39,540 bases of DNA from assembly GCA_947258585.1 (NCBI GenBank), contig CAMYIZ010000056.1, positions 1 through 39,540 on the forward strand, written 5' to 3'. The stretch's first letter is position 1. Every line of letters starts with the position of its first letter. The stretch comes from an uncultured Haliea sp. GTDB taxonomy: Bacteria > Pseudomonadota > Gammaproteobacteria > Pseudomonadales > Halieaceae. Positions 4,181 to 39,540 of the stretch are shown here, in pieces. Position numbers and translations under genes: made by a program. Under the pieces are notes generated by a model that was not told where the DNA came from, made no database searches, and saw only the letters and a list, made by a program, of their open reading frames with translations.

Positions 4181-4184
4181 GACT

Positions 4185-5428: not shown

Positions 5429-5457
5429 GCCTCCGCTACAGGCAGAGGACCAGGACC

Positions 5458-6708
5458 ATGCAGGCCGCCACCGAATCCCAGCAGCCCATAGAGGCTCTGT
5501 TCAACCCGGCTTCCGCCGAGTATCTCGCAGACCCGATATCACAGTACCTGGCCCTGGCCCGCCGCGGGCGCCTGGTCTGGTACGAGCCCTGGCAGGCGTG
5601 GATCATGACCCGCATGCCGGACATCATGGAATGCTGGCGCACCGAGTACCTCTCCTCCGATTTCTACGACTGGGAGTTCGCGCCGCCGAGGCCGCCGGAG
5701 GACAAATGGAGCAATTTCGAGCGGGCGATGATCGGTCACAGCCTGCTGGCGGACCACGATCATCACCGGCTGGTGCGACGCGTAGTGTCGCCGGCTTTCT
5801 CCCGCAACGTGGTGGACGAGATCCAGCGCCGCATCAAGCCCGATGTGGTCAAGCTGATTGACGCGCTGGGTGACCTCGAAAGCTTCGACTATATCGAGCG
5901 GGTGGCCAACCACATCCCGTTCATCTCCATCAGCCGCATGGTTGGCTTGCCGGAAAAATACTGGCCCGAGATCAAGCAGGTGGTGCTCACCTTTACCGAG
6001 GCCTGGAACCCGACCATCAGCGACGAGCGCCGCGAGGCCGCGCGCCAGGACAGCAACCGTGCCATCGAGATCCTGCAGCGGGTGATCGCCGAGCGCCGCG
6101 CCAACCCGGGAGAGGACGATTTTCTCAGCGTATTGCTGAAGATCGAAGCAGAAAACCCCAACTTCGGCGAATGGGACATCATTACCCTGGTGCTGGCGCT
6201 GATTGGCGCGGGGGCGGATACCACCCTGGTCGCCCAGCAGTGGACCCTGTACTCCCTGCTCAAGCACCCTGACCAGATTCCCACCGCGCTGGAGTCGCCC
6301 GATGCCTTCTCCAACGCCTTCAGCGAGGTCATGCGCTGGTCGACCTCCTCCAAGATGGGTTTTGCGCGCTACGCTCCCGAAGACATGGACGTGTTGGGGC
6401 AGCGGGTGCGCAAGGGCCAGATGGTGCTGATGATGCCGCACCTGAAGGACCACGACCCGGACTATTACGACCACCCGGAGCGTTTTGACGTCAAGCGCAA
6501 GTTCGACCCCGATGTACTGTTCGGCTACGGCCCGCGCTACTGCATTGGCGCGGCCATGGCCAAGCGCCAGCTGTATCTCACCATGGTGGAGCTGTTCCGC
6601 CGCTTCCCCAACCTGGAACTGGACGGCGAGCCGGAGCGGGACAATTCAGATCACAACGCCGTGGTATTCCGCGAGCTGCGGGTACGCACCAATGTTGGCA
6701 AAGCATGA
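5458..6708 (+). CDS. cytochrome P450
   Basis: A 416-aa soluble bacterial class P450 monooxygenase. Visible: C-helix HHRLVRR near 102-108, I-helix oxygen-activation motif AGADTT at 251-256, K-helix EVMR at 290-293, and heme loop FGYGPRYCIG with the axial Cys at 362. The length is typical. There is no membrane anchor. No ferredoxin or ferredoxin reductase is encoded nearby, so redox partners must come from elsewhere. It is first in a three-gene unit with a Rieske oxygenase (10 bp downstream) and an acetoacetate-decarboxylase-like protein. The substrate is unknown; steroid, terpenoid or fatty-acid-derived compounds are plausible given the neighbours. Confidence 0.96.
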   Translation: MQAATESQQPIEALFNPASAEYLADPISQYLALARRGRLVWYEPWQAWIMTRMPDIMECWRTEYLSSDFYDWEFAPPRPPEDKWSNFERAMIGHSLLADHDHHRLVRRVVSPAFSRNVVDEIQRRIKPDVVKLIDALGDLESFDYIERVANHIPFISISRMVGLPEKYWPEIKQVVLTFTEAWNPTISDERREAARQDSNRAIEILQRVIAERRANPGEDDFLSVLLKIEAENPNFGEWDIITLVLALIGAGADTTLVAQQWTLYSLLKHPDQIPTALESPDAFSNAFSEVMRWSTSSKMGFARYAPEDMDVLGQRVRKGQMVLMMPHLKDHDPDYYDHPERFDVKRKFDPDVLFGYGPRYCIGAAMAKRQLYLTMVELFRRFPNLELDGEPERDNSDHNAVVFRELRVRTNVGKA

Positions 6709-6718
6709 GACGGAAACC

Positions 6719-7690
6719 ATGAGCAAACGTTACGAAAAGCCCATTCCCTATGGCTGGTACGCGATCGACTACAGCGACAGCCTGCAGGCGGGCGCGGTCC
6801 GGCCGGTCAACTATTTCGGGCGCGAACTGGTGCTGTTTCGCACCGAATCAGGTGCCGCTTCCCTGCTGAATGCCCACTGTCCCCACCTCGGTGCACACCT
6901 GGGCTACGGCGGTATCGTCAAGGGTGAGTCGATCAGCTGCCCCTTCCATGCCTGGGAATTCAATGGCGAGGGCTACTGCACGGCCGTGCCCTATGCCAAT
7001 CGCATACCCCCCAAGGTGGCGGACAAGCAGTGCGTGGTCAGCTACCCGGTGATCGAGCGCAACCAGATGATCTGGGCCTGGTACCACCCGGATGGCACCG
7101 CGCCCCTGTTTGATATCGACGAGATTCCCGAGCTTGCCTCCGGCGAGTGGACAGCACTCGACACCTATGACTGGAAGATCAACACCATCATCCAGGAAAC
7201 CGGTGAGAACGCGGCCGATCTCGCCCACTTCATTACCGTACATGGCAGCCCGGCGATGCCCCAGGGCAGCGTTGTCATGGATGGCCCGCGCCGGGTGACC
7301 GAGTTCGACTCCCGGGCGCACGCTATCGACGAGCAGGGAAATGTGGACCTGAGTGGCGAGAGCCATGACGCCATTCACCTGCGCTCCGAGGGGCTGGGCC
7401 CGGGATTCACCTTCCAGCGCTTCTCCCGCATGTTTGATGTCCTGATGATGGGTACCGTGACGCCGATCGATGACCAGAATGTGCACCTGCGCTTCAACTT
7501 CTCGGTGCCGCGGAAGCAGTCGGAGGACAACGGCATGCTGGCCCGGGGGACGGTGCAGGAGATCGTGCGCCAGGTGGAGCAGGACATTCCCATCTGGGAG
7601 CACAAGGTGTATCTGGAAGATCCCGCCCTGTGCGACGGCGACGGCCCGATCGCCAAGTACCGCAAGTGGTTCCAGCAGTTCTACGCCTGA
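6719..7690 (+). CDS. Rieske non-heme iron oxygenase, KshA/DAF-36-like
   Basis: A 323-aa oxygenase component. The Rieske [2Fe-2S] ligands are C54, H56, C74 and H77 (CPHLG and CPFHAW), and the mononuclear iron site is in ENAADLAHFITVH with Asp167, His170 and His175. The CPHLGAHLG...CPFHAWEF style resembles the 3-ketosteroid 9-alpha-hydroxylase (KshA) and cholesterol 7-desaturase (Neverland/DAF-36) branch, which suggests a sterol or steroid substrate; this is by motif resemblance only. I start at ATG 6719 (MSKRYEKP), since upstream codons overlap the P450 gene. No Rieske reductase lies in the cluster. The next gene begins 58 bp downstream. Confidence 0.93.
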   Translation: MSKRYEKPIPYGWYAIDYSDSLQAGAVRPVNYFGRELVLFRTESGAASLLNAHCPHLGAHLGYGGIVKGESISCPFHAWEFNGEGYCTAVPYANRIPPKVADKQCVVSYPVIERNQMIWAWYHPDGTAPLFDIDEIPELASGEWTALDTYDWKINTIIQETGENAADLAHFITVHGSPAMPQGSVVMDGPRRVTEFDSRAHAIDEQGNVDLSGESHDAIHLRSEGLGPGFTFQRFSRMFDVLMMGTVTPIDDQNVHLRFNFSVPRKQSEDNGMLARGTVQEIVRQVEQDIPIWEHKVYLEDPALCDGDGPIAKYRKWFQQFYA

Positions 7691-7748
7691 GCCCACGGGC
7701 CCGGGGCAGCAAGTTTACCGAAAGCACTCATAACAGAGGATACAGCGC

Positions 7749-8513
7749 ATGAATGAAAAACTAGCCACTACTCCAGGCGACCACTACAACTGGCCGATGC
7801 TGAAAATCCGTTACCTGACGGATCCGGCCAAGCTGGCCGCGGTGCTCCCCCCGGGTTTCGAGCCGGGCAGTCGCCCGGAAGTGACCCTCACCGTATACAA
7901 CGTGCCCGTTAACGGTGAGCCGGAGCAGGGCCTGTTGACCACGGTGTTGTGCAACTACAAGGGCCGGGAAGGCCAGTTTGCGCTGGGCTACGCGATCGAC
8001 AAGGAAGCGGAGATCTTCATCAGCCAGGAGAAGTTTGGCCAGCCCAAGTACCCCGCGGAGATCAAGTACTACCGCCTGGGTGAGGAGGTGGGCGCGCGCG
8101 TAACCCACCAGAATTACACTTTCCTCGAATTCTACGGCAAGGTGACCGACACGCTGGACAATGGCCCGAAGTTTGATGAGCACGAATTCTGGGTGAAGTA
8201 TTCCCGTGCGGCGTCCTACGTGAAGACCGGCTTCGATTTTCCGCCGCATGTGGTCAATGTGGTCAGCAACTACGGCACGGCGCAAAAGCTGAAAGTGGAG
8301 GGTGACCTGATCCTGCGCGACAGCCCCTGGGACCCGCTCACCGAGCGTCTGCCGCCGGTATCAAAGCCGGAAACCTGGCTGTGGACACCCGAGTTCCTGG
8401 GCCGCAGTGTGGACCTGGGTGATCCGCTGGATGCCGACGCGTTCGAGCCCTGGGCCAGCACTATCGGCAATTCCCGCTGGCGCGGCAGCCACGGCGGTCC
8501 TCTGCGGGACTAA
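7749..8513 (+). CDS. acetoacetate decarboxylase family protein
   Basis: A 254-aa member of the acetoacetate decarboxylase (ADC) superfamily. The active-site lysine region is EKFGQPKYPAEI, with Lys100 at the place of the Schiff-base lysine. The classical enzyme has two adjacent lysines (PKK), and the second is Tyr here, so reaction and pKa tuning may differ. ADC-like proteins act on beta-keto acids and also as aldolase-dehydratases; the true substrate is unknown. An AGAGGA ribosome site precedes the ATG. It ends the P450-Rieske unit and is convergent with the TetR gene. Confidence 0.85.
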   Translation: MNEKLATTPGDHYNWPMLKIRYLTDPAKLAAVLPPGFEPGSRPEVTLTVYNVPVNGEPEQGLLTTVLCNYKGREGQFALGYAIDKEAEIFISQEKFGQPKYPAEIKYYRLGEEVGARVTHQNYTFLEFYGKVTDTLDNGPKFDEHEFWVKYSRAASYVKTGFDFPPHVVNVVSNYGTAQKLKVEGDLILRDSPWDPLTERLPPVSKPETWLWTPEFLGRSVDLGDPLDADAFEPWASTIGNSRWRGSHGGPLRD

Positions 8514-8535
8514 CGCAGGCACCTGCAGGCCTGCG
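8514..8535. terminator. hairpin between convergent decarboxylase-like and tetR genes
   Basis: CGCAGGC (8514-8520), an eight-base loop, then GCCTGCG (8529-8535) form a perfect seven-pair stem just after the stop codon of the upstream gene. There is no T-run on either strand, so it may be a processing or stabilising hairpin instead of an intrinsic terminator. Confidence 0.35.
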
Positions 8536-8552
8536 GTGATGCTCCCGGAGGG

Positions 8553-9206
8553 TCAACGCAGCGCCGCAGTCTCTCCGGCAGCGAGATCCGGTTCCCGCAC
8601 GAAGCTGGCACAAAGAAAGTCCAGCAGCTCGTCGTAGCGCCGCGCCGCGTCGTAGGCCGGGTTGTGCAGGGCGTTCAGGATCACGGTGTCTATCATGCCC
8701 ACCGTCATTTCGGCGCAAAATGCGTGCGACAGGCCGGGTTTCAGTTCGCTGACGCTGGCCTCGTACAGGCGCAGGAAGTTCTCGTTCATCAGCGCCAGCA
8801 GCGTGGCGCCGCTGGCGGGACTGTTGCCGATACTGGCGATGGAATAGCGCGCGATCTCCCGCTCCAGCCCGGTGCCGCCGCAGAGGTGCGCCTTCTGCCG
8901 CGTGATGACGTGGGTCAGGCGCTCCGGCAGTGTCCGGTAATCTGCGATTGCCTGCTCAATGGAGCCCGCCACCAGCTCCAGCAGCCGGCTGACGCAGATG
9001 TCGAAGAGCAGTTCGTGCTTGGTGGCGTAGTAGTTGTAGAACGTCTTGCGGGAAATGCCGGCACCGTCGCACATGGCCTCGATGGTCATCTCCTCGATAC
9101 CCTGGTGGGCGATCAGCGCCAGGGCTTCGTCGATGATGCGCTTGCGCAGGGCCTGCTTCTTGCGCTCCCTGAGCGTGGTGCGGGGCGTGGTCGAGGTCTG
9201 GGTCAC
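8553..9206 (-). CDS. TetR/AcrR family transcriptional regulator
   Basis: A 217-aa repressor-type protein. The N-terminal helix-turn-helix is visible at ALALIAHQGIEEMTIEAMCDGAGISRKTFYNYYATKHELLF (about residues 28-68), and the C-terminal ligand-binding half is divergent, as usual. The start is a GTG at 9206; no better ATG exists in frame. It lies 63 bp downstream of recN on the same strand and converges on the P450-Rieske-decarboxylase genes, so it is the likely local regulator of that cluster, acting on the palindromes near 5400. Its ligand is unknown. Confidence 0.9.
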   Translation of the reverse strand: MTQTSTTPRTTLRERKKQALRKRIIDEALALIAHQGIEEMTIEAMCDGAGISRKTFYNYYATKHELLFDICVSRLLELVAGSIEQAIADYRTLPERLTHVITRQKAHLCGGTGLEREIARYSIASIGNSPASGATLLALMNENFLRLYEASVSELKPGLSHAFCAEMTVGMIDTVILNALHNPAYDAARRYDELLDFLCASFVREPDLAAGETAALR

Positions 9207-9269
9207 TGTCGGCCAGCAAGGTCATGAGTTGTGGCAACCTTACACCAGTACTGCCCGCCAGCGCCAATC

Positions 9270-10931
9270 TCAGGCCTGAGCGGCGTCCTCCAGCATCTCC
9301 CGGGCGTGAGCCAGGGATTGCTCGGTAATCTTGACCCCGCCGAGCATGCGCGCGACCTCGCGCGTGCGCTCGTCCCCGACCAGCGGCACCATCCGGGTCC
9401 AGGCTGCGGTCTTGTCCGACGTCTTGCTCACCTGCAGGTGCTGGTGGCCCTGGGAGGCCACCTGGGCCAGGTGGGTGACGCACAGGACCTGGGTGTCCTG
9501 CGCCAGAGAACGCAGCAGGCGGCCGACGACTTCCGCCACCGCGCCGCCTATCCCCACGTCAACCTCATCGAAGACCATGCTGGGCAGGGTGCCGCCGCTG
9601 GCGGTTACCACCTGGATGGCCAGGCTGATACGCGACAATTCACCGCCGGAGGCGATTTTTGCCAGTGGCTGGGGAGCGGCGCCCGGATTGGTGCTGATCA
9701 GGAATTCGACATCCTCCGCGCCCTGGGGGTGGGGGTCGCTGTTGTCCCGCTTCGCCAGTGCCACCTCGAACCGGCAGTCGCCCATGGCCAGGGTCTTGAG
9801 CACGGCGGTCGCCTTGCTGACCAGGGACTTGGCGGTCCTGGCCCGCTGTTTGCCCAGGGTGCCGGCATCGGTAGCGTAGCGCTGCTCCAGCTGCGCCAGT
9901 TCCTGCTGCAATTCCTCAATGCGCTGGCCACCGTGGGTCAGGCCCGCGAGTTCCTCCTGCAGGCCGGCCAGGAATTCGGGCAGCTGCTGCGGCTTGATGC
10001 GGTGCTTGCGGGCCACGTCGTGGATCTGTTCCAGCCGCTTTTCGACTTCCGCCAGACGTTCCGGATCGATCTCGACGGAGTCGATGTAGCGCTGGACCTC
10101 GCTGCGGGCCTCCTCGAACTGGATGGCTGCCGACTCCAGCAGTTCCCGGGCGTTGTCCGCCGCCTTGCTGGCGCCGGCGGCGCCGCGGATCAGCTGCAGG
10201 GCATGACGGGCGCCTCCCGCCTGCTCCTCGCACAGCTCCAGGGCCTGGTGGGCGCCCTGCAGGATCTCCTCGGCGTTGGCCAGCAGGGTCTGGTCCCGCT
10301 CCAGCTCCTCCAGCTCGCCCTCGCGCAGGTCCAGGGCCACCAGTTCCTCGACCTGGTAGGCCAGCAGCTGGGCGCGCGCACTCTGTTCGTCCCTGCTGCT
10401 GGTCAGCAGGGCCAGCTCGCGCCTTCCGCGCAGCCATTCCGAGGCGGTCTGCTCCACGCTGCGGGCCAGGGCGACGTGGCCGGCAAAGCTGTCCAGCATC
10501 TCGCGCTGCACCGGCTTGCGCAGCAGTGACTGGTGCGCATGCTGGCTGTGGATGTCGATCAGCAGCTCCCCCAGCTCTGCGCAATCCTGGACCGTCGACG
10601 CACTGCCGTTGATATAGGCGCGCGAGCGACCCTCGCTGGTGACCACCCGTCGCAGCAGGCATTCGTCGCCGTGGTGAAGGTCGCGGGAGCGCAGCCAGGC
10701 AGTGGCCTGCGGGTTGTCGCTGATATCGAAGCCGGCGGTAACTTCGGCCCGTTCACTGCCTGCGCGCACCGCTTTGGGGTCCGCCCGGTCACCCAGGCAC
10801 AGGCCCAGGGCGTCCAGCATGATGGACTTGCCGGCCCCCGTTTCCCCGGTGATCACGGTCATGCCGCCCCGGAACTCCATGTCCAGGGTGTCGACAATGG
10901 TGTACTGGCTGATACTGATGTGGGTGAGCAT
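9270..10931 (-). CDS. recN: DNA repair protein RecN
   Basis: A 553-aa SMC-like ATPase for double-strand break repair. Walker A is GETGAGKS near residue 30, the long central region (about 170-370) is heptad-rich and Glu/Gln-rich (coiled coil), the ABC signature is IASGGELSRISLAIQ, and Walker B is SMVFDEVDVGIGG near 465. Length matches E. coli RecN (553). It is divergent from hrcA. No LexA-type CTGT-N8-ACAG box was found in the 129-bp gap, only a 14-bp CTG...CAG that is too short. A TTTATG-17-TATAAC pair is a possible promoter. Confidence 0.97.
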   Translation of the reverse strand: MLTHISISQYTIVDTLDMEFRGGMTVITGETGAGKSIMLDALGLCLGDRADPKAVRAGSERAEVTAGFDISDNPQATAWLRSRDLHHGDECLLRRVVTSEGRSRAYINGSASTVQDCAELGELLIDIHSQHAHQSLLRKPVQREMLDSFAGHVALARSVEQTASEWLRGRRELALLTSSRDEQSARAQLLAYQVEELVALDLREGELEELERDQTLLANAEEILQGAHQALELCEEQAGGARHALQLIRGAAGASKAADNARELLESAAIQFEEARSEVQRYIDSVEIDPERLAEVEKRLEQIHDVARKHRIKPQQLPEFLAGLQEELAGLTHGGQRIEELQQELAQLEQRYATDAGTLGKQRARTAKSLVSKATAVLKTLAMGDCRFEVALAKRDNSDPHPQGAEDVEFLISTNPGAAPQPLAKIASGGELSRISLAIQVVTASGGTLPSMVFDEVDVGIGGAVAEVVGRLLRSLAQDTQVLCVTHLAQVASQGHQHLQVSKTSDKTAAWTRMVPLVGDERTREVARMLGGVKITEQSLAHAREMLEDAAQA

Positions 10932-11004
10932 AGAAAACCGCTGCAGGATTTGCGCTGTTATACCGCAGATCCGCTACGGCATAAACATCAGGAGTGGCCG
11001 CGCT

Positions 11005-11032
11005 TTGTATTCCGCTGCCCCTGTGTTACAAC
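11005..11032 (+). promoter_or_regulatory. putative sigma-70 promoter of hrcA
   Basis: TTGTAT (11005-11010) and TACAAC (11027-11032) are separated by 16 bp, with a TG two bases before the -10, and lie about 30 bp before the hrcA start. No CIRCE inverted repeat (TTAGCACTC-N9-GAGTGCTAA) overlaps it. Confidence 0.45.
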
Positions 11033-11060
11033 CGGGGCACGCAACAGCAGAGGGGAAGGT

Positions 11061-12095
11061 ATGAGCTCGGCGGATTTGTCGGAACGCGCACGGATTATCC
11101 TCAAGGCCCTGGTGGAGCGCCATATCCGCGATGGCCAGCCGGTGGGGTCGCGCACCCTGCTGGAGGAAGCCGGCCTGCCGGTCAGCGCTGCCACCATCCG
11201 CAATGTGATGTCGGATCTGGAGGAGCGCGGGCTGCTGCACTCACCGCACACCTCGGCCGGGCGGGTGCCTACCGCCCAGGGCTACCGCCTGTTCGTCGAT
11301 CGTCTGCTGCAGGTGCAGCCCATTGATGAGCGCGCGGTTATTGCCCTGCGGGAGCAACTCAATCCCGACAAATCCGCGACGGAGCTGGTGCAGACGGCCT
11401 CTTCCCTGCTGTCCGCGATCACCGCCCAGGCGGGGCTGGTGACCGTGCCGCGGCCGGATACCCACCAGTTGCGCCAGGTGGAATTCCTGCCGCTGTCCGG
11501 GGACCGGGTGCTGGTGATCCTGGTGGTCAATGAGCGTGAAGTGCAGAACCGCATCATCCATACCCAGCGACCCTTCACCGAGTCCGAGCTGCGGGAAGCC
11601 GCGGCCCTGGTCAACCAGCGCTTCGCCGGGCAGCCGCTGAGCCGGGTCCAGGGCCAGATCCTGAGGGAGATGGAGGAGGCGCGCAGCCGCATCGACAGTT
11701 ACCTGCAGGCGGCCCTGGATCTCGCCAGCAAGGCGCTGGACCAGGAGGATAGCGAGGATGAGTACCTGGTGGCCGGGGAGTCGCGGCTGTTGGGTAATGT
11801 CAGCCCCGAGGATCTGGGGCGATTGCGGGAGCTGTTTGACGCCTTCGAGCGGAAAAAAGATCTCCTGCACCTGCTGGAGCGCTGCTCCAAGGCCAATGGC
11901 GTGCAGATCTTCATCGGTGAAGAGGCCGGCTTCGAGGTCTTTGGCGATTACAGCGTCATTACCGCTCCTTACACTGCCGGCGCCCGTACCCTGGGTGTGC
12001 TGGGGGTGATCGGACCGACCCGCATGGCCTACGAGCGGGTGATTCCGGTGGTGGATATCACCGCCCGGATGCTGAGTTCCGCCCTGTCCCAGTGA
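11061..12095 (+). CDS. hrcA: heat-inducible transcription repressor HrcA
   Basis: A 344-aa repressor that binds CIRCE operators of chaperone genes and is kept active by GroEL. Seen: N-terminal winged helix (ERARIILKALVERHI, PVGSRTLLEEAGLPVSAATIRNVMSDLEERGLL, HTSAGRVPTAQGYRLFVD), central GAF-like domain, and C-terminal GVIGPTRMAYERVI motif. I start at ATG 11061 after a strong AGGGGAAGG site; longer in-frame upstream sequence overlaps recN on the other strand. It is the first gene of the hrcA-grpE-dnaK-dnaJ chaperone cluster. Because no CIRCE appears within the cluster, its targets (for example groESL) are probably elsewhere. Confidence 0.96.
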   Translation: MSSADLSERARIILKALVERHIRDGQPVGSRTLLEEAGLPVSAATIRNVMSDLEERGLLHSPHTSAGRVPTAQGYRLFVDRLLQVQPIDERAVIALREQLNPDKSATELVQTASSLLSAITAQAGLVTVPRPDTHQLRQVEFLPLSGDRVLVILVVNEREVQNRIIHTQRPFTESELREAAALVNQRFAGQPLSRVQGQILREMEEARSRIDSYLQAALDLASKALDQEDSEDEYLVAGESRLLGNVSPEDLGRLRELFDAFERKKDLLHLLERCSKANGVQIFIGEEAGFEVFGDYSVITAPYTAGARTLGVLGVIGPTRMAYERVIPVVDITARMLSSALSQ

Positions 12096-12136
12096 CCCTC
12101 CCCTGCGCCGTGGCGCCCCGGGATACCCTCCCGGCC

Positions 12137-12164
12137 CTTGAAATGCCAGCCAGCGTCCCAATAT
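12137..12164 (+). promoter_or_regulatory. sigma-32-type heat-shock promoter before grpE
   Basis: CTTGAAA (12137-12143), 13 bp, then CCCAATAT (12157-12164). This fits the heat-shock sigma factor (RpoH) pattern CTTGAAA-N13/14-CCCCATNT and sits about 80 bp before grpE. The same pattern recurs before dnaK. Confidence 0.75.
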
Positions 12165-12242
12165 CTTCCGCTAGCAGCTGATGGGCGGCCCCCGTGGTCC
12201 TGCCTGTCACTCAATCGGAACCGCCATTGATGGAGCAGAGAC

Positions 12243-12833
12243 GTGGCTGAGAGCGAGCAGAAAAAATCCGCAACAGAAGAGGCCCTGGCGGCTGAGCAGT
12301 CCGCCGCGGGTGCCGGGACAGGGAGTTCCGACGCCGCCCAGGGAGACGGTGAATCTACCCCGGAGGAGTTGATGGCGAAGCTGGAGGAGGACCTCAATGC
12401 CGCCCGGGATGCGGCCCTGCGGGCCCATGCCGACGCCCAGAACATCAAGCGTCGCGCCGAGCAGGACGTGGAGAAGGCGCGCAAGTTCGCCCTGGAATCC
12501 TTCAGCAGGGAGTTGCTGCCGGTCGTCGATAACCTGGAGCGAACCCTGGCGGTCACGGCGGGACACGACGAGTCAGTGAAACCGATCATCGAGGGAGTCG
12601 AGCTGACCCTGAAGAGCTTCACCGATGCCCTGCGCAAGTTCAATATCGAGCCAGTGGACCCGGAGGGCGAGCCCTTTGACCCCCAATTGCACCAGGCCAT
12701 GAGCATGGTGGAAAACGCCGATGTCGAGCCCAATACCGTGATCGCGGTGATGCAAAAGGGCTACACACTGAATTCCCGGCTGGTGCGCCCGGCCATGGTC
12801 ATGGTCAGCAAGGCACCGGCAGCGCAAGAGTAA
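12243..12833 (+). CDS. grpE: nucleotide exchange factor GrpE
   Basis: A 196-aa co-chaperone that releases ADP from DnaK. An acidic, low-complexity N-terminus leads into the long dimerisation helix ([38 protein letters not shown]), then the family motif [21 protein letters not shown] and the beta domain ending in [30 protein letters not shown]. The start is GTG 12243, seven bases after GGAG. It is about 100 bp upstream of dnaK and has its own sigma-32-like promoter. Confidence 0.97.
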
Positions 12834-12846
12834 GCTCGCGGTGGCC

Positions 12847-12874
12847 CTTGAATTTTTCCGCTCAGGGCCAATAT
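12847..12874 (+). promoter_or_regulatory. sigma-32-type heat-shock promoter before dnaK
   Basis: CTTGAAT (12847-12853), 13 bp, then GCCAATAT (12867-12874), in the 98-bp gap between grpE and dnaK. The two promoters have the same spacing and nearly the same -10, supporting RpoH control of both genes. Confidence 0.7.
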
Positions 12875-12931
12875 AGAGAACAACTGACACAATCAGGCCG
12901 GCAGCGCCGGCCCGTATGAGGAGACGCACAC

Positions 12932-14863
12932 ATGGGCAAGATTATCGGTATCGACCTGGGTACCACCAATTCCTGCGTAGCCGTGCTGGAAGGCGGCAAG
13001 GCGCGGGTGATCGAGAACTCTGAAGGCGACCGCACCACGCCCTCCATCGTTGCCTACACGGAGGATGGCGAGATCCTGGTGGGCCAGAGCGCCAAGCGCC
13101 AGTCGGTCACCAACCCCAACAACACCCTGTATGCCGTCAAGCGCCTGATCGGGCGCAAGTTCAAGGACGACGTGGTGCAGAAGGACATCAAGATGGTCCC
13201 CTACAAGATCATCGAAGCCGACAACGGCGATGCCTGGGTACAGGCCAAGACCGAGAAAATGGCACCGCCGCAGGTGTCGGCCGAAGTACTGCGGAAAATG
13301 AAGCGCACCGCCGAGGAATACCTGGGCGAGTCGGTCACCGAGGCGGTGATCACCGTGCCGGCCTACTTCAATGATTCCCAGCGCCAGGCGACCAAGGATG
13401 CCGGCCGTATCGCCGGCCTGGACGTCAAGCGCATCATCAACGAGCCCACCGCGGCGGCGCTGGCCTATGGCATGGACAAGGCCAAGGGCGACCGCACCAT
13501 TGCGGTGTACGACCTGGGCGGCGGTACGTTTGACATCTCCATCATCGAAATTGCCGAGGTGGATGGCGAGCACCAGTTCGAAGTGCTCTCCACCAACGGT
13601 GACACTTTCCTCGGTGGCGAGGACTTCGACATGCGCCTGATCGAGTATCTGGCGGCGGAGTTCAAAAAGGAGAGCGGTATCGACCTGCACAGCGATCCGC
13701 TGGCCCTGCAGCGCCTGAAGGAAGCGGCGGAAAAGGCCAAGATCGAGCTGTCCTCCAGCCAGCAGACCGAGGTCAACCTGCCCTACATCACGGCCGACGC
13801 GACCGGTCCCAAGCACCTGGTGGTGAAGCTGTCCCGCTCCAAGCTGGAATCCCTGGTAGAGGAGCTGGTCAAGCGCTCCATGGGACCGGTGAAAGTGGCG
13901 CTGCAGGACGCCGGCCTCAGCCCCAGCGAGATCAACGATGTGATCCTGGTGGGTGGCCAGACGCGCATGCCGATGGTGCAGAAGGCGGTGGCGGACTTCT
14001 TCGGCAAGGAACCGCGCAAGGACGTCAACCCGGATGAAGCCGTGGCCATGGGCGCGGCGATCCAGGGCGCGGTACTCTCCGGCGACGTCAAGGACGTGCT
14101 GCTGCTCGACGTGACCCCGCTGACCCTGGGTATTGAAACCATGGGCGGCGTCGCCACGCCGCTGATCGAGAAGAACACCACCATCCCGACCAAGAAGTCG
14201 CAGGTGTTCTCGACGGCTGACGACAACCAGACCGCTGTTACCATCCACGTGGTGCAGGGCGAGCGCAAGCAGGCGGCACAGAACAAGTCCCTGGGGCGTT
14301 TTGACCTGGCGGATATACCGCCGGCACCGCGCGGCATGCCGCAGATCGAAGTCACCTTCGACCTCGACGCCAACGGTATCCTCAACGTCTCCGCCAAGGA
14401 CAAGGCGACCGGCAAGGAGCAGTCTATCCGCATCACCGCGTCCGGTGGCCTGAGCGAGGAGGAAATCGAGAAAATGGTTTCCGATGCCGAGGCCAACGCC
14501 GACGCCGATGCGAAGTTCGAGGAGTTGGTCGGTGCCCGCAACGCCTGTGACGGCCTGGTGCATGCGGCACGCAAGACCCTGGAGGAGGCGGGCGACAACG
14601 CCACCGCGGACGAGAAGGCGGCCATTGAGGCGGCCATCACCGAGGCGGAAGAAGCATTGAAAGCCAACGACAAGGACGCCATTGACGCCGCGGCCACCAA
14701 GCTGACCGAAGCCACCGGTCCGGTGGCACAGAAAATGTACCAGGCCCAGGCCGAAGCCGGCGCGGGTGCCGCGGAGGAAGCCGGCGCTGGCGGCGAGCAG
14801 GCAAAAGGTGGTGACGATGTGGTCGATGCCGAGTTCGAGGAAGTGAACGACGACAAGAAGTAA
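12932..14863 (+). CDS. dnaK: molecular chaperone DnaK (Hsp70)
   Basis: A 643-aa Hsp70. Visible: N-terminal [13 protein letters not shown], phosphate-2 motif [12 protein letters not shown], adenosine motif [14 protein letters not shown], linker [14 protein letters not shown], the substrate-binding domain, and the C-terminal EEVNDDKK-type tail (ends [12 protein letters not shown]). Length equals the proteobacterial norm. A GAGGAG site precedes the ATG. It works with DnaJ and GrpE in protein folding and heat-shock control. The large open frame on the opposite strand (12893-14563) is a codon-bias shadow. Confidence 0.99.
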
Positions 14864-14884
14864 GCGATAACGCTTCTGTCACAC

Positions 14885-14942
14885 GGGGCGGAGTGCCGCC
14901 CCGGATGCCAATCTTGACCACGCGGGACATGAGAGCCCGCGT
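14885..14942 (+). promoter_or_regulatory. two stem-loops in the dnaK-dnaJ gap
   Basis: The first hairpin is GGGGCGG-agtg-CCGCCCC (14885-14902), seven pairs with a four-base loop. The second is ACGCGGG-nine bases-CCCGCGT (14920-14942). Neither is followed by a T-run, so full termination is not expected. They probably protect the dnaK mRNA or reduce read-through into dnaJ. Confidence 0.5.
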
Positions 14943-14980
14943 CGTCATTTGCGAGGGTGCGGTTTAACGCCAGGCTGTTT

Positions 14981-16908
<1,928 letters not shown>

Positions 16909-31548: not shown

Positions 31549-34500
31549 TCACGACGCCCAGGCAATATCGAACTCGGCGACAACCATGTTCCGGCCGCGA
31601 CCAACTATAGCCAAGTCACAGCCTAGTGCCTCGGCGGCGTGCTCCATAATCGTGAATCCAGCAGTTTCGCTGGCGTCAAATGCAAGCCCTTCCGGTATTC
31701 CAATGCCGTCGTCCTGATAGACAAATTTTACCGAATCACTGCCTGAGGTGGGATCGGCTGTAACCGTCACCGAGAAGCGAACGAAGCATGCAGCCGGATG
31801 GTTGACAAACCCATGCGCAAGCGAGTTATCAAAAAGTTCAGCCATGATGATTGCCAGTGGTATAGCCTGCTCCGCAGGAAACAGTTCTTCCCGTATATCA
31901 TTGACGGTGGTGAGGCGGGAAAGAACTTCGGCATGGCTTGCTCCCGCCAGATTGACGAGTCGGGCCGTATAGGTCTTCAAGTTCGAATAGAGCTTTTCAC
32001 CGCGGTAGTAGAGGCTGTCCTGTATAAGCTCGAGGATACCAAGCCTGAACTGTAACCTGTCGTGGACGAGCTCACTCACGGCGGGCTCCCACTCTACCGT
32101 TGTGTCCGTGCAGAATCTCACCCAGTACAAAAGCTGTTTATTGTAGGAATGTACTGAATCTGTAAATTTTCCCTGGAATTCCAGCTGGTCCTGCAGGCTA
32201 TCCGCAAAGCGATCGGCAATCTGCTGCAATTCGATCGCCTGCTGCAGTTGCTGCTTCTTGAGCATCTGGCTTCGATAGATCTTGAGGCCCATGTAAACCA
32301 AGCCGCAGATTGCAATGAAATAAGCTGCAAACGCCCACATGGTCAACCAGGGAGCTGGTCTAACCTCAAGATCAATGCTCAAGCCCTGATAGTTCCAGAC
32401 CCCTGCCGAATTCACGGCCTGAACCCTGAATACATAATCGCCTGCGGGTAGGTTCGTATAGGTGGCTGCCCCACGGTTGCCGATGTCTATCCAGTCTGTG
32501 TCGAACCCAACGAGTTTATGCCGATACCTTGTGTTCTCGGGATCGGTGAAGTCCAGGGCGCTAAATTCGAAGGTAATGAAGCGGTCATTGTGGTTTAGTA
32601 TGATTGAGTTGAGGTTGGAGCGAGGCCCATGGGATCTGGTTATATTGTCGCCTACTACGACACGAGTAAGCATCACGTCCGACGGGCGTGCGAGAATGCT
32701 GACAGTTTTGGGATGGAAGCGAATATATCCGTGATTGCCTCCGAAATAGAGAAAACCTTCCGCATCCTTGTGTGAGCTTCCGAGTTCAAACTCGGTTTCT
32801 TGGAGCCCGTGTGCTTGACCAAAGTTAAACAAACTCCCGTCTTGCGCAAGTTTTGAAATTCCTTGATTGGTGGAGAACCATATGTCGCCGTCGCCGCCTA
32901 CCTCAATGGCATAAACTGTTAATCCTGATAAAGGTGAGTCCAGTTGCAACTGCTGGAGTTCGGAAAATGGTGGATTGCCAGTTCTGATACTTTTGTCTAG
33001 CCTGAGCAAGCCGTGATGCAAGGAGCCGAACCATATAAACCGCGAGTCCTCAGCCATGCTCCAAATGAGCGGTTGTTTGGGCCATTCCAATCCGGGAGTT
33101 GAGAATTTCGGTGAATAAGCTTGACCTGACAAAGTTTGAAAAACCCCAAGGCCTGATTCTGTTCCAATCCAGATTCTTTCATCCTGTGTTCTGAACAACA
33201 TTAAAACCCTGTTGTCAGGCAGTGCGCCCGGGTTCTTGGATGATAAAATGTTGTACGCTTCACCCGATCGGTTGAGTATCGTCAGTCCGCCCCCGTAAGT
33301 CCCGATTAGGACTTCGTCTACACTCAATTTTAGAAATGAACTGATGGAATCTGATTGCAGGCCGTCAAGTGAATGTGAGTCATATATGAGAGAACTTGAA
33401 TCCTGGAGGTTGATTACTTCGAAGCCCGCGTTTCTATAGCCGATGTAAATTGTGGATCCATCCACCAGAACTGACATGATTCTTTCTCCGTGGCGTGGAA
33501 CTCCAGGAAAGGAGTCGGAAAACTTGGAGACTTCCCCGTGGTCATTGTTGACAATGAGGAGACCGTCGTAAGACGCGATCAATAAGTTGTCTTCGTCTAT
33601 AGACTCAATAGCTACGACTGAATGCAGTTCCTTGTTGGAATCCTTGTTGAAAAATTCGAAGGGGGATAGAACGAGTCTATTAATCCCGCCATACGTTCCA
33701 ATCCAGTAACCCCCCGAATGATCTGGACTAAACGATATAACTTCGTTGTTCAAGAGGATGGAATTGGATGTGGTAAAGTACTCGACTACTTTTCCCTTCT
33801 CCAATATTAATATTCCTTGGTCGCTTGCCACGAGAACGAGTCCAGATTCGTCGTGAAAACTCAAATCGTGAACGGTGGACTTACGGAAGTCACTTTCGCT
33901 ATCTACCGCTGGAAGGAGTTGACTGCATTCGTCTGACCTTGTGTCAAAAGCAAAAATTCCGTCGCCGTAAGTGCCGATCCATATGATATCTTCGTTTGAT
34001 TGCAAGACTTCTTGCACAATGGATTTTATTCCACATTTTAACTCGACATCGAATGTTTCGATGACATCTGAGAATTGCCTTCTCCTCGCTATATTATTCC
34101 GGCTAGAGATCAGAATATCACTCGATGATCCACTTTCGGAGAAATCTGTAATCACTTCGCTAAAAGGTAGTGAGATGCTTTCTTTGGTTGTTCCGTTTTT
34201 TGCTACCTTTACTACACTTCCATCACCAAAGCCGATCCACAAATCCATGACGCTTGAGAAGTATACTTCTGAAATATTTGTGTTATCGATCTTCAAATTT
34301 TCCATCCACTCCGGAATCTTGAAGATGCCTGTGTTTGAATCAAAGACAAGTAGTGAGTTGGACTCGGTCTGCGCAACCACCTCTCCCTTCCATACTTCTA
34401 AAAGCTTTATTATTCTAATATGGCGCGCACCCGATGAGTCATTATGGTATTTGACATACGTGCCCTTTGCCTCAAAAACGCCATCGTAGCTTGATGCCCA

Positions 34501-34716
34501 CAGGATATTATTTTTCGTATGTAAAATTGATAGTGTTGTACCTTGCTGAAGGAAGCGATTGAGGTATGTGTCGACTACAGCAAAAGATGGTCGCCCCCTA
34601 CTTTTTTGACTTACTTCCTCGTTAGGGGTGCCGGATGCGGGAACCTCTGCGAAGCTCTCTGCCGCAAGACCTATGAGACAAATTATTAGGAGAAATTTCG
34701 TTATTTTTATAGTCAC
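31549..34716 (-). CDS. Y_Y_Y two-component sensor with kinase-like ATPase (second sensor)
   Basis: About 1055 aa from a GTG at 34716; a TTG at 34758 would add 14 aa and overlap the upstream sensor stop. A signal peptide (LLIICLIGLAAESFA) precedes about fourteen W-I-G-T-type propeller blades (for example IWIGTYGDG, YWIGTYGG, VLIGTYGGG), a Y_Y_Y domain, and a membrane helix at about 791-813. The cytoplasmic part is short: a helical segment with HDRLQFRLGIL near 885, where a HisKA_2-like phospho-His would be expected, then an HATPase with N-box AELFDNSLAHGF and DDGIGIP near 1002. The G2 glycine loop is degenerate (TAGFTIM). There is no receiver or HTH. It may be a weak or inactive kinase partner of the larger sensor. 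Base composition is AT-richer than the rest of the window. Confidence 0.85.
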   Translation of the reverse strand: MTIKITKFLLIICLIGLAAESFAEVPASGTPNEEVSQKSRGRPSFAVVDTYLNRFLQQGTTLSILHTKNNILWASSYDGVFEAKGTYVKYHNDSSGARHIRIIKLLEVWKGEVVAQTESNSLLVFDSNTGIFKIPEWMENLKIDNTNISEVYFSSVMDLWIGFGDGSVVKVAKNGTTKESISLPFSEVITDFSESGSSSDILISSRNNIARRRQFSDVIETFDVELKCGIKSIVQEVLQSNEDIIWIGTYGDGIFAFDTRSDECSQLLPAVDSESDFRKSTVHDLSFHDESGLVLVASDQGILILEKGKVVEYFTTSNSILLNNEVISFSPDHSGGYWIGTYGGINRLVLSPFEFFNKDSNKELHSVVAIESIDEDNLLIASYDGLLIVNNDHGEVSKFSDSFPGVPRHGERIMSVLVDGSTIYIGYRNAGFEVINLQDSSSLIYDSHSLDGLQSDSISSFLKLSVDEVLIGTYGGGLTILNRSGEAYNILSSKNPGALPDNRVLMLFRTQDERIWIGTESGLGVFQTLSGQAYSPKFSTPGLEWPKQPLIWSMAEDSRFIWFGSLHHGLLRLDKSIRTGNPPFSELQQLQLDSPLSGLTVYAIEVGGDGDIWFSTNQGISKLAQDGSLFNFGQAHGLQETEFELGSSHKDAEGFLYFGGNHGYIRFHPKTVSILARPSDVMLTRVVVGDNITRSHGPRSNLNSIILNHNDRFITFEFSALDFTDPENTRYRHKLVGFDTDWIDIGNRGAATYTNLPAGDYVFRVQAVNSAGVWNYQGLSIDLEVRPAPWLTMWAFAAYFIAICGLVYMGLKIYRSQMLKKQQLQQAIELQQIADRFADSLQDQLEFQGKFTDSVHSYNKQLLYWVRFCTDTTVEWEPAVSELVHDRLQFRLGILELIQDSLYYRGEKLYSNLKTYTARLVNLAGASHAEVLSRLTTVNDIREELFPAEQAIPLAIIMAELFDNSLAHGFVNHPAACFVRFSVTVTADPTSGSDSVKFVYQDDGIGIPEGLAFDASETAGFTIMEHAAEALGCDLAIVGRGRNMVVAEFDIAWAS

Positions 34717-34738
34717 ACGCTGGTAGAGTATCCGACGG

Positions 34739-37700
34739 TTAGGAATTACTGACGTCAACTTTGTAACTGGCGTATCTCTTATCGAACTCCCTTGTAAATG
34801 TTTTGTATGCGGTTTCTAGATCGGCGCATTCTTTCTGTAAATTGATTTTCTTTCCATGCTTTACGCAGATTTCAATATTGGATGCAATATTTTTTACTTG
34901 TTTTGCTCCAAGGTTCGCGCTCATTGACTTAATGGCGTGGGCGATTGATTGCGTCTGCTCCGGACTTTCTGACCTTAACGCGATGTTGAGGTCCTTGATT
35001 TTTTCCGTCATTTGGATTCTAAATCCAGAGTAGACTTCCGGCAGTATGGATTTTCCAGTTTGTAGTTCAATGTGGGTAATATTCTCGATGGCAACTGGGT
35101 CGATAATGTCTTCATTAACTCCCGAACTTTTCGCGCTCTGTTGGTAGGTTGCTTCTTGGTTTTTTGCTGATTTTCTGAATTGTGATCGATAGCCGATGTG
35201 ATCTTGAATAACTTTAGCTATATCCGATATTTTGAACGGCTTACCGAGGTAGCCATCCATTCCTGCCTCTGAAAACGCCTCTCTATCTGTGGCGGTGATT
35301 CCGGCTGTTAGAGCGATAATCTTGACCGCAGAGATGCCCTTCAATTTTTCCTCTTCTCGTATCTTTTTGGTTGCTTGGTACCCGTCCATTACCGGCATCT
35401 GGCAGTCCATGAATATTAAGTCATAGCGACTTTCTCGTTGAAGTTCGACAGCCTCGGCTCCATTCTGAGCGATGTCAACTTTGTGTCCGCTCATTTCAAG
35501 AACTTCCTGCGCGATCTTTTGGTTGGTGGGGATGTCCTCTACGACGAGAATCCTGAGAGGCGATGTTGTGTTCGGAGCTTCGCCTATAACTGCAGCACTA
35601 CTTTCTGGTTCTGGTTTGACAAGTAGGTCTTCAATCGCGAGTTTCAGTGTTTCGGAAGTGCATGGTTTTGTCGTAGTAAGCCAATCCTTATATGGAGCGG
35701 GTATCTTGGTTTCATGAAGCGGCATCAGCAATATGCCTTGTCCGCGGCTGGAATTGTTGGGGGGAATCTCATGGCTTCTCGTATAGCTATCGAGATCAAT
35801 AATCTGAATATCTGCACGCTCTATTGAGGGAAGGTCTGAAGTTTCCTCCGGTGCCTGGATGTTGAGAATACCTATTCTTTGAAGCTGCGCCTTTATCATC
35901 ATTCTGGTGGAGTGCTTCATTGACAGAACTAACACGCTGCAATCTCGAAGTTCAGTTGAGATTTTAGGGCTGGAAGAGGAAGTACCAAGCATCATTGGAA
36001 TTGAAATATTAATCTCTGTTCCTTCTCCGGGTTTGGATAAAACATGTATATCACCATTCATCAAGGCTATGTAATTGCGAGTTATGGATAGACCTAGCCC
36101 TGTTCCTCCATACTTTCGTGTCGTGCTCGCGTCTGCCTGAGTGAAGGGTTCAAAAACCCTGCGAGCGGTTTCGTCGTCCATTCCGATGCCGGTGTCTCGA
36201 ATTGTAATTCTAAGGGTTCCTTTGCTGTCGAGAGCATTACTTTCAGATCTAAATTCAACGCTGACGTTGATCTCTCCTGTATCCGTGAACTTGATTGCGT
36301 TGTTGATAAGGTTCATCAATATCTGGCGCAGTTTTCCTGGGTCACCAAGTAAATGTGTCGGAACATTCATGTCGATGGCGTGAGTTAGTTCCAGTCCTTT
36401 GCGTGCAGCGGGCTCACTTTGTAAATAGCAAGTATCTTCAATGAGAGCGACAACATCGAATAATGTGCATTCAATGTCTACTCGAGAGGCCTCTATTTTC
36501 GAGAAATCAAGAATATCATTTATCAAAGCCAGTAGGGCAACGCCGCTCTTGTGAGCAGCGGTGGCAAATTTCTTCTGCTGATTGTTTAGCTCGGTATGAA
36601 GAAGTAGCTCTGTCATCCCGATCATTCCATGCATAGGCGTTCTTATTTCATGGCTCATGGTAGCCAAGAATTCTGACTTTGCCTTATTTGCCTTTTCTGC
36701 TGTGCTTCTCGCTTTTTCTAGGTCTATGGTGCGTTCCTTAACTTTCGCTTCCAGTTCTCTTTGTCTCGCCAAGCCTGCTCGTTCCCTTCTCCGTTGCTGG
36801 TGTAATGTAGATAGTACAAGAGTCAATGCCATAAACGAATAAGCTATATAGGCAGAGTTGCTTTTCCATGGCGGCGGAAGGACTTGGATTCGTAGAGATT
36901 TGCTATCCCAGTTCCAAGCCCCTCCTGGGCTGGCAGCGGCCAACCTCAAAGTGTACTCACCCGACGGGAGTGTGGTGAATGAAGCCTGTTTCGCGTCTTC
37001 CGAGACAATCCAGCTTTCGTTTAGCCCCTCCATTTTGTACGCGTACTGAACTAGAGGCGGGTTTGAATAGTCAGCGGCGAAAAATTCAACTGAAAACATG
37101 CGGTCATTATGGGTGAGAGTTATTTCGGTAATTTCGTTGTATGGTTTGTCGAACTCTCGCCGCTCGTTCATTATTTTTATTTCGGAAATGCTGATGATGG
37201 GCGGTTCTTCTTTATCTACGAATCCTGCTGGGTCCACGATGTTGAAGCCTAAATTTCCGCCAAAGTAGATCAAGCCATTGCTAGCTTTGAAAGACGCCCC
37301 CATGTTGAACTCAGTATCTTGCAGACCCTCTTTTACACCATACTGTCGAGATTCGCCGGTTTGCGGGTTTAACTTCGTTACTCCTCTGTTGTGTGAGAGC
37401 CAGATGTTTCCCTTTGTCCCACTTTGAATCCCATAGATGTTTGAACTTGGAAGAGAAATATCCTCGGAATAGTGGCGGAACTTTTCGATACCATTTGCTC
37501 GGTCTTGTTTTGTCCACCTATTGAGACCACCCCCCTTTGTGCCGAGCCATAGGTCTTGGTTGCGGTCTTCGTAAAATGACCATACCATGTCGCTTGATAT
37601 ACTGTTGGTGTTGCCTCTTTCTGTGTATATTCTGCGGAATGCGGATGTTTCTACATTAAATTGATTTAGTCCATTTTCTGTTCCGATCCAAACATAACCT

Positions 37701-39247
37701 AGTGAGTCCTCAAACAGAGCAATTACATTGTTATTGCTGAGGGTTTTCTCATCGAATGGGTCGTGAGTAAGGTTGTTGAAAGAGCCTGTTCTTTCGTCAA
37801 GTATACTTAGTCCGCCTCCGTAAGTTCCTACTAGTAGCTTACCCGACGATGTTCTTAGAATCGATGTAACTCCATTGGCTGCCAAACTGGAGCTGTCAAA
37901 GCGTGAACTTCGAAAAATCTCTACTTCGTTAGTGTCGATATTGAGTTTGTTTAGCCCGCCAGAGAATGTTCCTATCCAGAGGATGTTTCCTTCCCCTAGA
38001 AGACTCATCACAGTACTGTTCGAGATGCTTGGTTCTGAGTATTCGTTGATCCAAGTGAACTCGGTGGCATTTCCCCGGAGGCGATTTAACCCGTTGTCGG
38101 TTCCAACCCATATGCTCCCGTCAGTAGTTTCTCCAAAAGCATTAACAGAGTCGTTGGACAGCTTTCCGATGCTTGAGTTGTACTTGGGAAATAGGTTCTT
38201 GGACCCGTTTGCCAACCCTACTATAGTGCCAATCCAGTACAGGCCCTCCCGGGATTGGTAGATGCTGTATAGTCGACTTGAAGGTAGATTTGTATTCTGA
38301 CTATTGAAACGGTGAAAAGATTCGGACTCAGGTTTATATAGGTCTAGTCCTTCGAGAGTGCAGATCCATAGTCTTTTATCTCTATCTTCAAAAATATCGA
38401 ATGCGGTATTGGAGGAAATGGAGTTTGGGTCCATTTCTTCGTTGCGATAATGCTCTGCTTTCCTGGTCGCTGGGTTGTACTTGGTGGCTCCCGACCCTAG
38501 CGAGAGTGACCAGATATTTCCGCGTGAGTCAGCATAGACGTGGAAAATCGGCTCTGGTGAGAGATTTGAGGTTTCCTTCACTGAGTCGGACACTATGCTC
38601 GATGTCATAGATTCTTTTTCAATTTTCAGTAACCCGCTGGCCAGTGTAGCTGCCCAGATAGTTCCATCAGCAGACTGAGTAAAGCTGTTGATTTCTCCAA
38701 GGTAGGGCAGATTTATTTGTTGGGGGAAATAATGAGAAAACAATCCCGTTACGGGGTCGAAACGGCTGAAGGCGTTGTCATATCCGAGCCAAATCTCTCC
38801 GTCGCTGTCTGTAAAAACTGTGAGAATATCGTTTGAGAGCGGAGACTGATCTTGAGATTCGCCGGCAAGTAGCGATGAAAAACCATTGGATATGCGATCG
38901 TATTTGTTCAGGCCACCGCCCCTAGTTGAAACCCAGACATCGCCTGTTTGGTCTTCTGTTATGCTGGTCACTGCGTCATGCGATAACGACTGTGGATTGG
39001 TAAGCGAATACCGGTAGTTCTCGAGCTGGGTGCCGTTGTAGCGATTCAGTCCTTCTTGAGTTACAAACCATATGTTGCCGGTAGAGTCCTGAAAGGTTTG
39101 TGTGACGATTTGTTGGGTAAGGTTTTGTGAAACTACAGAGGGCTGGAAGTCGATGTTAGATTGATCCCCCAGGAAACTCTTGGCGTAGGCTGCTGAGCTA
39201 CAGACAACTAGAAGTAGAGCTAATGCACTCCAATTCCTACACTTCAT
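34739..39247 (-). CDS. hybrid sensor histidine kinase, double propeller-Y_Y_Y-HK-REC-Hpt
   Basis: 1502 aa. Signal peptide with AYA cleavage near 22; fourteen propeller blades counted from I-W-x-G-T-x-x-G-L motifs, matching two seven-bladed propellers; Y_Y_Y domain near 700-790 ([12 protein letters not shown]); membrane helix near 798-815; coiled coil to 856. HisKA phospho-His866 is in [11 protein letters not shown], HATPase has N982, DTGIG 1018 and GGTGLG 1047. A degenerate receiver follows (about 1100-1210, IIDLD and TTTKP), then an intact receiver with Asp1281 (FMDCQMP), Thr1314 and Lys1336, and an Hpt domain with His1437 ([11 protein letters not shown]). It lacks the AraC output of Bacteroidetes HTCS proteins, so its phosphate must go to a separate regulator. 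Adjacent to and in one operon with the second sensor (22 bp or overlapping). Confidence 0.93.
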
Positions 39248-39351: not shown

Positions 39352-39380
39352 AAAAAGCAAAAAGGGGGCTTGTGCCCCCT
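39352..39380 (-). terminator. strong intrinsic terminator of the repeat-protein gene
   Basis: On the minus strand AGGGGGC-acaa-GCCCCCT forms a seven-pair, G/C-rich stem with a tetraloop, followed by TTTTGCTTTTT. It begins 30 bp after the TAA of the repeat frame, which is strong evidence that a gene on the minus strand ends here. Confidence 0.92.
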
Positions 39381-39410: not shown

Positions 39411-39540
39411 TTATCGGAAACCCCACTTGTAGCCAGCTTGGTCCGCGTAGCTGCGGAAACCCCACTTGTAGCCAGCTTGGTCCGCGTAGCTGCGGAAACC
39501 CCACTTGTAGCCAGCTTGGTCCGCGTAGCTGCGGAAACCC
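39411..39540 (-). CDS. 3' end of a gene encoding a perfect 13-residue tandem repeat protein (partial)
   Basis: Only the last 42 codons are in the window; the gene continues beyond 39540. The frame reads three copies of GFRSYADQAGYKW plus a final GFR and TAA (39413-39411). I prefer this frame because 10 of 13 codons end in G or C and they are typical high-GC favourites (TTC, CGC, AGC, TAC, GAC, GGC, AAG), while the other two minus frames, also open because 39 is a multiple of 3, use CTA, GGA, CCA, ACA and AGT. The stop is followed by a strong terminator. The repeat is rich in aromatic and alternating charged residues. I do not recognise it. Possible classes: repetitive surface or secreted protein, or a multi-core peptide precursor. 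Confidence 0.7.
   Translation of the reverse strand, partial: GFRSYADQAGYKWGFRSYADQAGYKWGFRSYADQAGYKWGFR
39415..39540. repeat. 39-bp perfect tandem repeat, at least 3.2 copies
   Basis: Copies begin at 39415, 39454 and 39493, with a partial copy at 39532; all are identical to the base, including every synonymous position. This implies very recent expansion or ongoing homogenisation. The unit is an exact multiple of three, so all copies stay in frame. The array runs off the right edge. Confidence 0.97.

Follow-up and report, generated by a model that had tools for sequence, protein, structure and literature searches.

A tandem-repeat gene between an exported subtilase and propeller sensors in Halieaceae: a putative peptide signalling system

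A 39-bp tandem array at one end of a contig from an uncultured Haliea sp. belongs to a gene that, together with an exported subtilase and two propeller sensors, looks like an undescribed, putative peptide signalling system of Halieaceae. Sequence comparison gives good support to the view that subtilase, repeat protein and sensors form a genomic unit. We assign a probability of about 0.5 to the reading in which the subtilase would release or present a multicopy aromatic peptide, this peptide would be recognised by a periplasmic propeller, and c-di-GMP would be set as a consequence.

A repeat gene split between two contig ends

The DNA analysed here (the window, 39,540 bases) is the whole of contig C56 of this genome, and the array is broken by the contig end at 39540. 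Tandem Repeats Finder places the array at 39415..39540, with 3.2 copies of the 39-bp unit at 100% match. Read on the minus strand, each unit encodes SYADQAGYKWGFR, and homologous arrays are present in relatives. The minus-strand frame reads GFRSYADQAGYKW and stops at a TAA codon (39413-39411), yielding a C-terminal fragment (39411..39540, minus strand) of the repeat gene, hereafter REP. Behind REP, the sequence contains a terminator-like stem-loop with a T tail (39353..39380, minus strand). The exact 13-residue repeats, stop codon and terminator described by a first-pass annotation of this DNA are therefore all in place. That annotation also had the C-terminus stopping inside a unit, but this proved to be an artefact of phase: the array read as SYADQAGYKWGFR closes on a full unit, and most uncut REP homologues likewise end in W-x-x-R. 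Near the opposite contig end, two copies of a 59-bp tandem repeat are present (window 68-186).

The start and leader that had been sought beyond 39540 were located on a second contig of the same genome. The last 600 bases of contig C48 (112092-112691; L006:12093-12692 in our locus numbering) hold the 5' part of REP, with a GAAGGGG ribosome site followed by an ATG. The encoded N-terminus is hydrophobic and, judged by eye, signal-peptide-like; degenerate repeats come after it, and then six 13-residue units run to the contig end, five with the same residues and one variant. On the basis of the gene order of relatives, the C48 and C56 ends flank one gene, the contigs themselves being unjoined. The proposed identity of the units even at silent positions holds for the copies in the window and fails for those on C48, which differ at silent positions. 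As for the frame itself, a start is present, no earlier stop interrupts it, and codon differences favour it over the others.

REP homologues were found in 42 of 97 genomes searched. All 42 come from the same family, which contributed 61 genomes (ours included), and the 36 genomes from other families of the order gave none. When genomes were searched with a profile, REP appeared in 51 of the 78 Halieaceae genomes with a completeness of 90% or more, and a sample of 368 other genomes from across the class contained none. Named carriers include Haliea salexigens, H. alexandrii, Haliea sp., Pseudohaliea rubra, Chromatocurvus halotolerans, Sediminihaliea albiluteola and Kineobactrum sediminis. The REP protein of our genome matches no Pfam or NCBIfam family at E 0.01. 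When a profile built from 33 of 40 repeat proteins (A1) was searched against the PDB, the sole match was lysostaphin (E 0.00019). We do not take this as kinship, since the match probably reflects a common repeat periodicity; the lysostaphin propeptide presumably has a 13-residue period of its own.

REP proteins consist of a signal-peptide-like start (by eye), a middle part that in many members carries VHxVSHSLA and GYKWG motifs, and then the units. The number of units in uncut arrays ranges from 2 to 21, and almost every unit is exactly 13 residues long; the repeat gene of G037 (L096) has a 12-residue unit. Among 33 arrays with at least three units, the majority unit contains W in 33, Q in 31 and D or E in 31, and its last residue is Arg in 30, Asn in two and Gln in one. 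In one unit of the long array of G463 (L105), the Trp that is invariant elsewhere is replaced by Gly. A general Arg-specific cleavage rule is ruled out because some arrays end their units in Asn or Gln.

For the same 33 arrays, mean unit identity is 90% within arrays versus 58% between genomes, where the within-array value is raised by leaving out units that differ from the array majority at more than five positions. These values suggest that units homogenise within genomes. Codon differences within arrays comprise 3425 synonymous and 1560 non-synonymous changes, compared with 4113 to 15887 for random changes, the unit pairs being non-independent. This synonymous excess argues that the frame is real and that the peptide is under purifying selection. 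As judged from these comparisons, the units of the REP family are thus homogenised within genomes, diverge between genomes and are held by purifying selection.

Gene order, sensors and subtilase

The conserved gene order in relatives is GGDEF-EAL, REC-GGDEF-EAL, subtilase, REP, sensor 1 and sensor 2, with variants in which only one GGDEF-EAL gene is present or sensor 1 has no sensor 2 at its side. Wherever the contig leaves enough space (53 of 53 loci), the subtilase gene is found upstream of REP, at a distance of 130-906 bases. Sensor 1 is on the same strand, 92-1379 bases downstream of REP, in 39 of the 44 loci with at least 3.7 kb downstream (11 of 55 locus rows with less were left out; our genome and G024 each count as two contig halves, and L100 has no row). 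The five exceptions (G012, G051, G480, G482 and G487) all belong to genus g6, carry a sensor orthologue on another contig and have units without tyrosine. G037 and G486, also of g6, have tyrosine-less units as well, yet sensor 1 adjoins; loss of the tyrosine and relocation of the sensor are therefore not tied.

Across the 78 genomes, the subtilase (E 1e-100) occurs in all 51 that have REP, and eight further genomes have a subtilase match and no REP match. Seven of the eight are accounted for, G038 being left out: the contig ends beside the subtilase in two (L091, L092), BLAST places a 121-residue ORF of G467 in the REP family (L090), the G008 locus (L089) has neither REP nor the two sensors, the repeats of G013 are fused, and the subtilase matches of G015 and G052 come through the fused form. 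With sensor 1 at E 1e-200, both genes occur in 43 genomes, REP alone in eight, the sensor alone in six and neither in 21. The REP-alone set comprises two genomes with an adjoining sensor under the cut-off (L057, L060) and six with REP near a contig end. The sensor-alone set comprises fused or reduced forms (G013, G015), short repeat-less ORFs (G466, G472) and contig-cut loci (G470, G478). A Fisher test of REP against sensor 1 gives p 1.7e-7, on which we do not lean because it ignores kinship.

The array had been placed directly upstream of two propeller sensors on its own strand, and both are indeed found there on the minus strand. Sensor 1 (34739..39247, 1502 aa) has a signal-like N-terminus followed by Reg_prop, Y_Y_Y, HisKA, HATPase_c, receiver and Hpt domains, as assigned by Pfam and orthologues, with the domains from Reg_prop through the receiver all above the Pfam cut-off in this single protein. 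Its phosphorelay residues are His865, the Asp in DCQMP at 1281 and the Hpt His at 1437. Pfam detects no C-terminal DNA-binding domain, the Hpt domain standing there instead. Sensor 2 (31549..34758, 1069 aa) overlaps the end of sensor 1 and carries Reg_prop, Y_Y_Y and a divergent HATPase that scores below the Pfam cut-off. Of 35 sensor 2 sequences, 30-31 keep the HATPase residues; in the region read for a phospho-acceptor, no His reaches conservation in 85% of the 35. Both GGDEF-EAL proteins of our genome keep their GGDEF and EAL motifs, and the second has a receiver domain, to which sensor 1 would relay.

Twenty loci with subtilase, sensor 1 and BepA were used to compare rates of change, leaving out relocated, contig-cut and paralogous loci. 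Mean identity over 190 pairs is 37% for the sensor 1 propeller, 52% for its kinase and 35% for its receiver-Hpt part, and 67% each for the subtilase catalytic domain and BepA. The sensor 2 propeller evolves very fast, with a mean identity of 22% (105 pairs).

The exported subtilase lies just upstream of REP on the 5' contig (C48) and in the order of relatives. Like the c-di-GMP genes on that contig, it was outside the DNA available to the first-pass annotation, which had proposed a search for adjacent proteases. Its S8 domain scores 166.8 bits against PF00082 (cut-off 21.8), and the catalytic residues D269, H309 and S507 are invariant in the 21 sequences of alignment A3. A profile of the propeptide (A4) best matches the subtilisin prosegments 1scj_B, 1spb_P and 3whi_A (E 5.5e-4 to 0.0071), and Pfam Inhibitor_I9 is matched by only 2 of 17 propeptide members, at best E 0.0074. 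By these matches the enzyme is classed as a peptidase S8 with an inhibitor I9-like propeptide. The gene is split at one locus (L031, in G039), where the parts match query residues 11-464 and 458-669 and the repeat gene and sensors are present. The tail of the Halieaceae subtilase contains a nearly invariant WG (W628, G629), whose [KR]xWG[VI]K-like surroundings are similar to one unit of the array with its KWG. In the subtilase of our genome (L006:9753-11783) and its orthologues, this WG is possibly a relic of a fused ancestor.

Subtilases with fused repeats and competing explanations

At the G013 locus there is no separate REP; the subtilase itself ends in 56 copies of NYWNAG, with sensor 1 on one side and a divergent sensor 2 on the other. 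With this subtilase as query, relatives turned up in 3 of 369 further genomes from the class; in the order, 20 of 391 genomes matched, 18 of them Halieaceae and two from one other family. The surroundings of G120 were searched with that genome's own subtilase, which gave matches in 5 of 73 genomes, G120 among them. All nine non-Halieaceae subtilases found in this way carry C-terminal aromatic repeats. Fused repeats span five other families plus two Halieaceae genera. The repeats are worded differently from locus to locus: GYLWNN (L131), DAYLWF (L130), GYIWNM (L152), GFIWNL (L153), GYTWGGR with variants (L160), DGYTWGGAGSGGTT (L161), AYIWSR (L162, L163) and, in the Halieaceae genomes G052 and G015, copies of YFFND (L094, L095). 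L132 has three dispersed copies of GDPWGGGY and no tandem array. Unit lengths of 6, 11-12, 13 or 15 among relatives make one common solenoid fold for the repeats unlikely.

A Reg_prop-Y_Y_Y protein adjoins 9 of the 12 fused loci, a raw count taken over array-bearing subtilases. All eight fused loci with both flanks present have such a neighbour. L130 is cut on its far side. In L131, L152 and L153 the array lies at the contig end or is broken by it, and no Reg_prop protein was recognised on the remaining flank. Output domains are a hybrid kinase at L093, GGDEF at L094, L095 and L130, and GGDEF-EAL at L132 and L160-L163; the sensor gene shares a 4-base overlap with the subtilase gene at L094 and L095. 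Sigma-54 activators also occur beside these genes, one with GGDEF-GAF at the subtilase-sensor pair of L094 (15704-18655) and one with a receiver domain at the subtilase gene of L152 (3137-6040). The fused subtilases form one clade with 100/100 support (the midpoint root of the subtilase tree serves for drawing only), and the 12 loci therefore do not represent independent origins. The sensors at these loci are homologous, at 26-35% identity by BLAST, and the repeat sequences and outputs differ. On this evidence, other lineages have repeats fused to the subtilase and adjoining sensors with kinase or c-di-GMP outputs. The elements that stay constant among the sequences compared are several copies of a short aromatic motif, a predicted exported subtilase and a propeller sensor, putatively periplasmic, whose output domains are of the kinase or c-di-GMP type. 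The proposal of the first-pass annotation that a repeat-borne peptide or surface protein is tied to the sensors gains from both sets of loci, the 39 of 44 with a separate REP and the 9 of 12 with fused repeats.

The same data can be read in terms of a multivalent matrix or adhesive protein. Its repeats would act as weak stickers that assemble outside the cell, the subtilase would remodel the material, the c-di-GMP enzymes would set the timing, and the propellers would watch the state of the envelope or matrix and not a peptide. Such a protein would accommodate the variation in unit length (6, 11, 12, 13, 15) and number with the aromatic motif alone being kept, as well as the adjoining c-di-GMP genes. 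We consider it unlikely nonetheless, because the repeats in most fused loci are a short protease tail of 3-14 copies (56 in G013), and because the two or three units of some Halieaceae members offer little for a matrix.

Alternatively, the repeats might serve for docking or retention, as a tail by which the subtilase (in Halieaceae, a separate adaptor) is kept at the propeller sensor or the envelope; the sensor would then read protease activity or cleavage and no free peptide. Fusion of repeats to subtilase in the 12 loci found here and the resemblance of the Halieaceae tail WG to the KWG of the unit are what a docking function would predict. The separate REP gene of most Halieaceae fits this less well, as does a locus in G015 (L124) that has both GGDEF-EAL genes and both sensors, and a 133-residue protein in the subtilase's place. 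This protein consists of the subtilase propeptide and two GSIWKT units, with no catalytic domain. A propeptide HMM built without it matches it at E 6.9e-10, as the only non-subtilase match among 874 ORFs, and matches 62 of 62 subtilases. Repeats and sensors can therefore stay together after loss of the protease domain, and we regard docking as a rather improbable function of the repeats.

Least likely, and in our judgement quite improbable, is that the sensors merely control secretion of protease and repeat protein upon some other ligand, the repeats going unsensed: REP has its own terminator-like site, g6 keeps both sensors and REP although they are unlinked, and sensor and subtilase genes are divergent in L132 and L160-L163, but the association recurs in several families, among which repeat sequences and sensor outputs vary, and the adjoining sensors in other families end in GGDEF or GGDEF-EAL and have no DNA-binding domain.

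Proposed mechanism and comparison with known systems

According to the peptide-ligand reading, REP would be exported by its own signal peptide (a by-eye prediction), and the subtilase would trim or release it. The product would be one short aromatic peptide in many copies, or a multivalent chain of such peptides. Its G[YF]xW-type motif would be recognised by the sensor 1 propeller and possibly also by that of sensor 2. The sensor would then alter a phosphorelay through HisKA, receiver and Hpt, with the REC-GGDEF-EAL protein encoded close by as its last step, and in this way set c-di-GMP. Export, cleavage, binding of the peptide to the propeller, the relay partner, the direction of signalling and passage between cells are the parts of this scheme that we infer. 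A more specific version, which we offer tentatively and at somewhat less than even odds, is a Gram-negative tandem pheromone precursor from which the subtilase, encoded by an adjoining gene or itself bearing the repeats, would free many copies of a lineage-specific aromatic peptide, with a cognate propeller sensor converting it into a c-di-GMP decision. If so, homogenisation of the array would alter all copies of the word together, so that lineages would come to use different words.

Several observations count against the peptide-ligand reading. Sensors and REP are unlinked in several genomes of g6, and the motif tyrosine is lost with the sensor still next door at L096, L103, L055, L046 and L099. 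G466 and G472 have an ORF without repeats in the REP position beside a kept sensor, and the REP of G031 (L060) has two units, the minimum seen. No single cleavage rule fits, since the units are not all Arg-ended. The receiver-Hpt part of sensor 1 is as divergent as its propeller, so that rapid divergence extends beyond the propeller. Finally, G008 has lost REP and both sensors as a block while subtilase and GGDEF-EAL genes remain, which suggests that these genes have other work or are relics.

If the peptide-ligand reading is correct, marine bacteria would possess a peptide signal from a tandem precursor that feeds c-di-GMP. Should the peptide not be the signal, one would still have to explain why a new family of secreted repeat proteins accompanies an exported protease and propeller sensors in several bacterial families. 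Copies of G[YF]xW at the end of a subtilase provide a simple search handle for further cases. Apart from the repeat protein, all components of the module fall into known families; the combination matches no catalogued family or described system met in the searches made here, and the mechanism put forward for it is hypothetical. Literature searches on the motif letters showed no relevant paper among the matches listed. Those combining Halieaceae or Haliea with Reg_prop, subtilase, repeats or c-di-GMP gave the module in no title or abstract start among the matches listed, which does not imply that it is unpublished.

Hybrid two-component systems of Bacteroides combine Reg_prop, Y_Y_Y, kinase, receiver and a C-terminal DNA-binding domain, and have glycan-degrading neighbours. 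Sensor 1 shares with them a signal-like N-terminus, the Reg_prop propeller, Y_Y_Y, the histidine kinase and the receiver, but has Hpt in place of the DNA-binding domain and is accompanied by a subtilase and a repeat protein, not by glycan-degrading genes. Beyond gut Bacteroides, we know of no natural ligand for the majority of Reg_prop sensors. In the present case the gene for a conserved candidate ligand adjoins that of the sensor, and the ligand can be synthesised as a 13-mer. Cyanobactin clusters have PatA/PatG-type S8 proteases near a precursor with several cores, and the proximity of an S8 protease gene to a multi-core precursor gene is common to both. However, our subtilase scores 38.3 bits with the PatA/PatG model (cut-off 421.05), and no peptide-modifying enzyme is found among the neighbours annotated with Pfam and NCBIfam.

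The yeast alpha-factor precursor is a comparable multicopy peptide precursor. More generally, fungal KEX2-processed repeat proteins are secreted precursors of many near-identical short peptides that are processed by a subtilisin-family protease (PMC9769878). Like them, REP has several near-identical cores behind a signal peptide (by eye), and a subtilase is encoded next door. The differences are that REP is bacterial, that dibasic sites between units are absent except for RR at the unit ends of some g6 arrays, and that the candidate receptor is a propeller sensor and not a G-protein coupled receptor. In the Gram-positive agr and fsr quorum-sensing systems, peptide signals act with histidine kinases (PMC8534201). 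The small peptide proposed here would likewise be the ligand of a sensor kinase encoded nearby. Compared with agr and fsr, the Halieaceae system would differ in its tandem precursor with a signal peptide (by eye), its large periplasmic propeller and its c-di-GMP genes.
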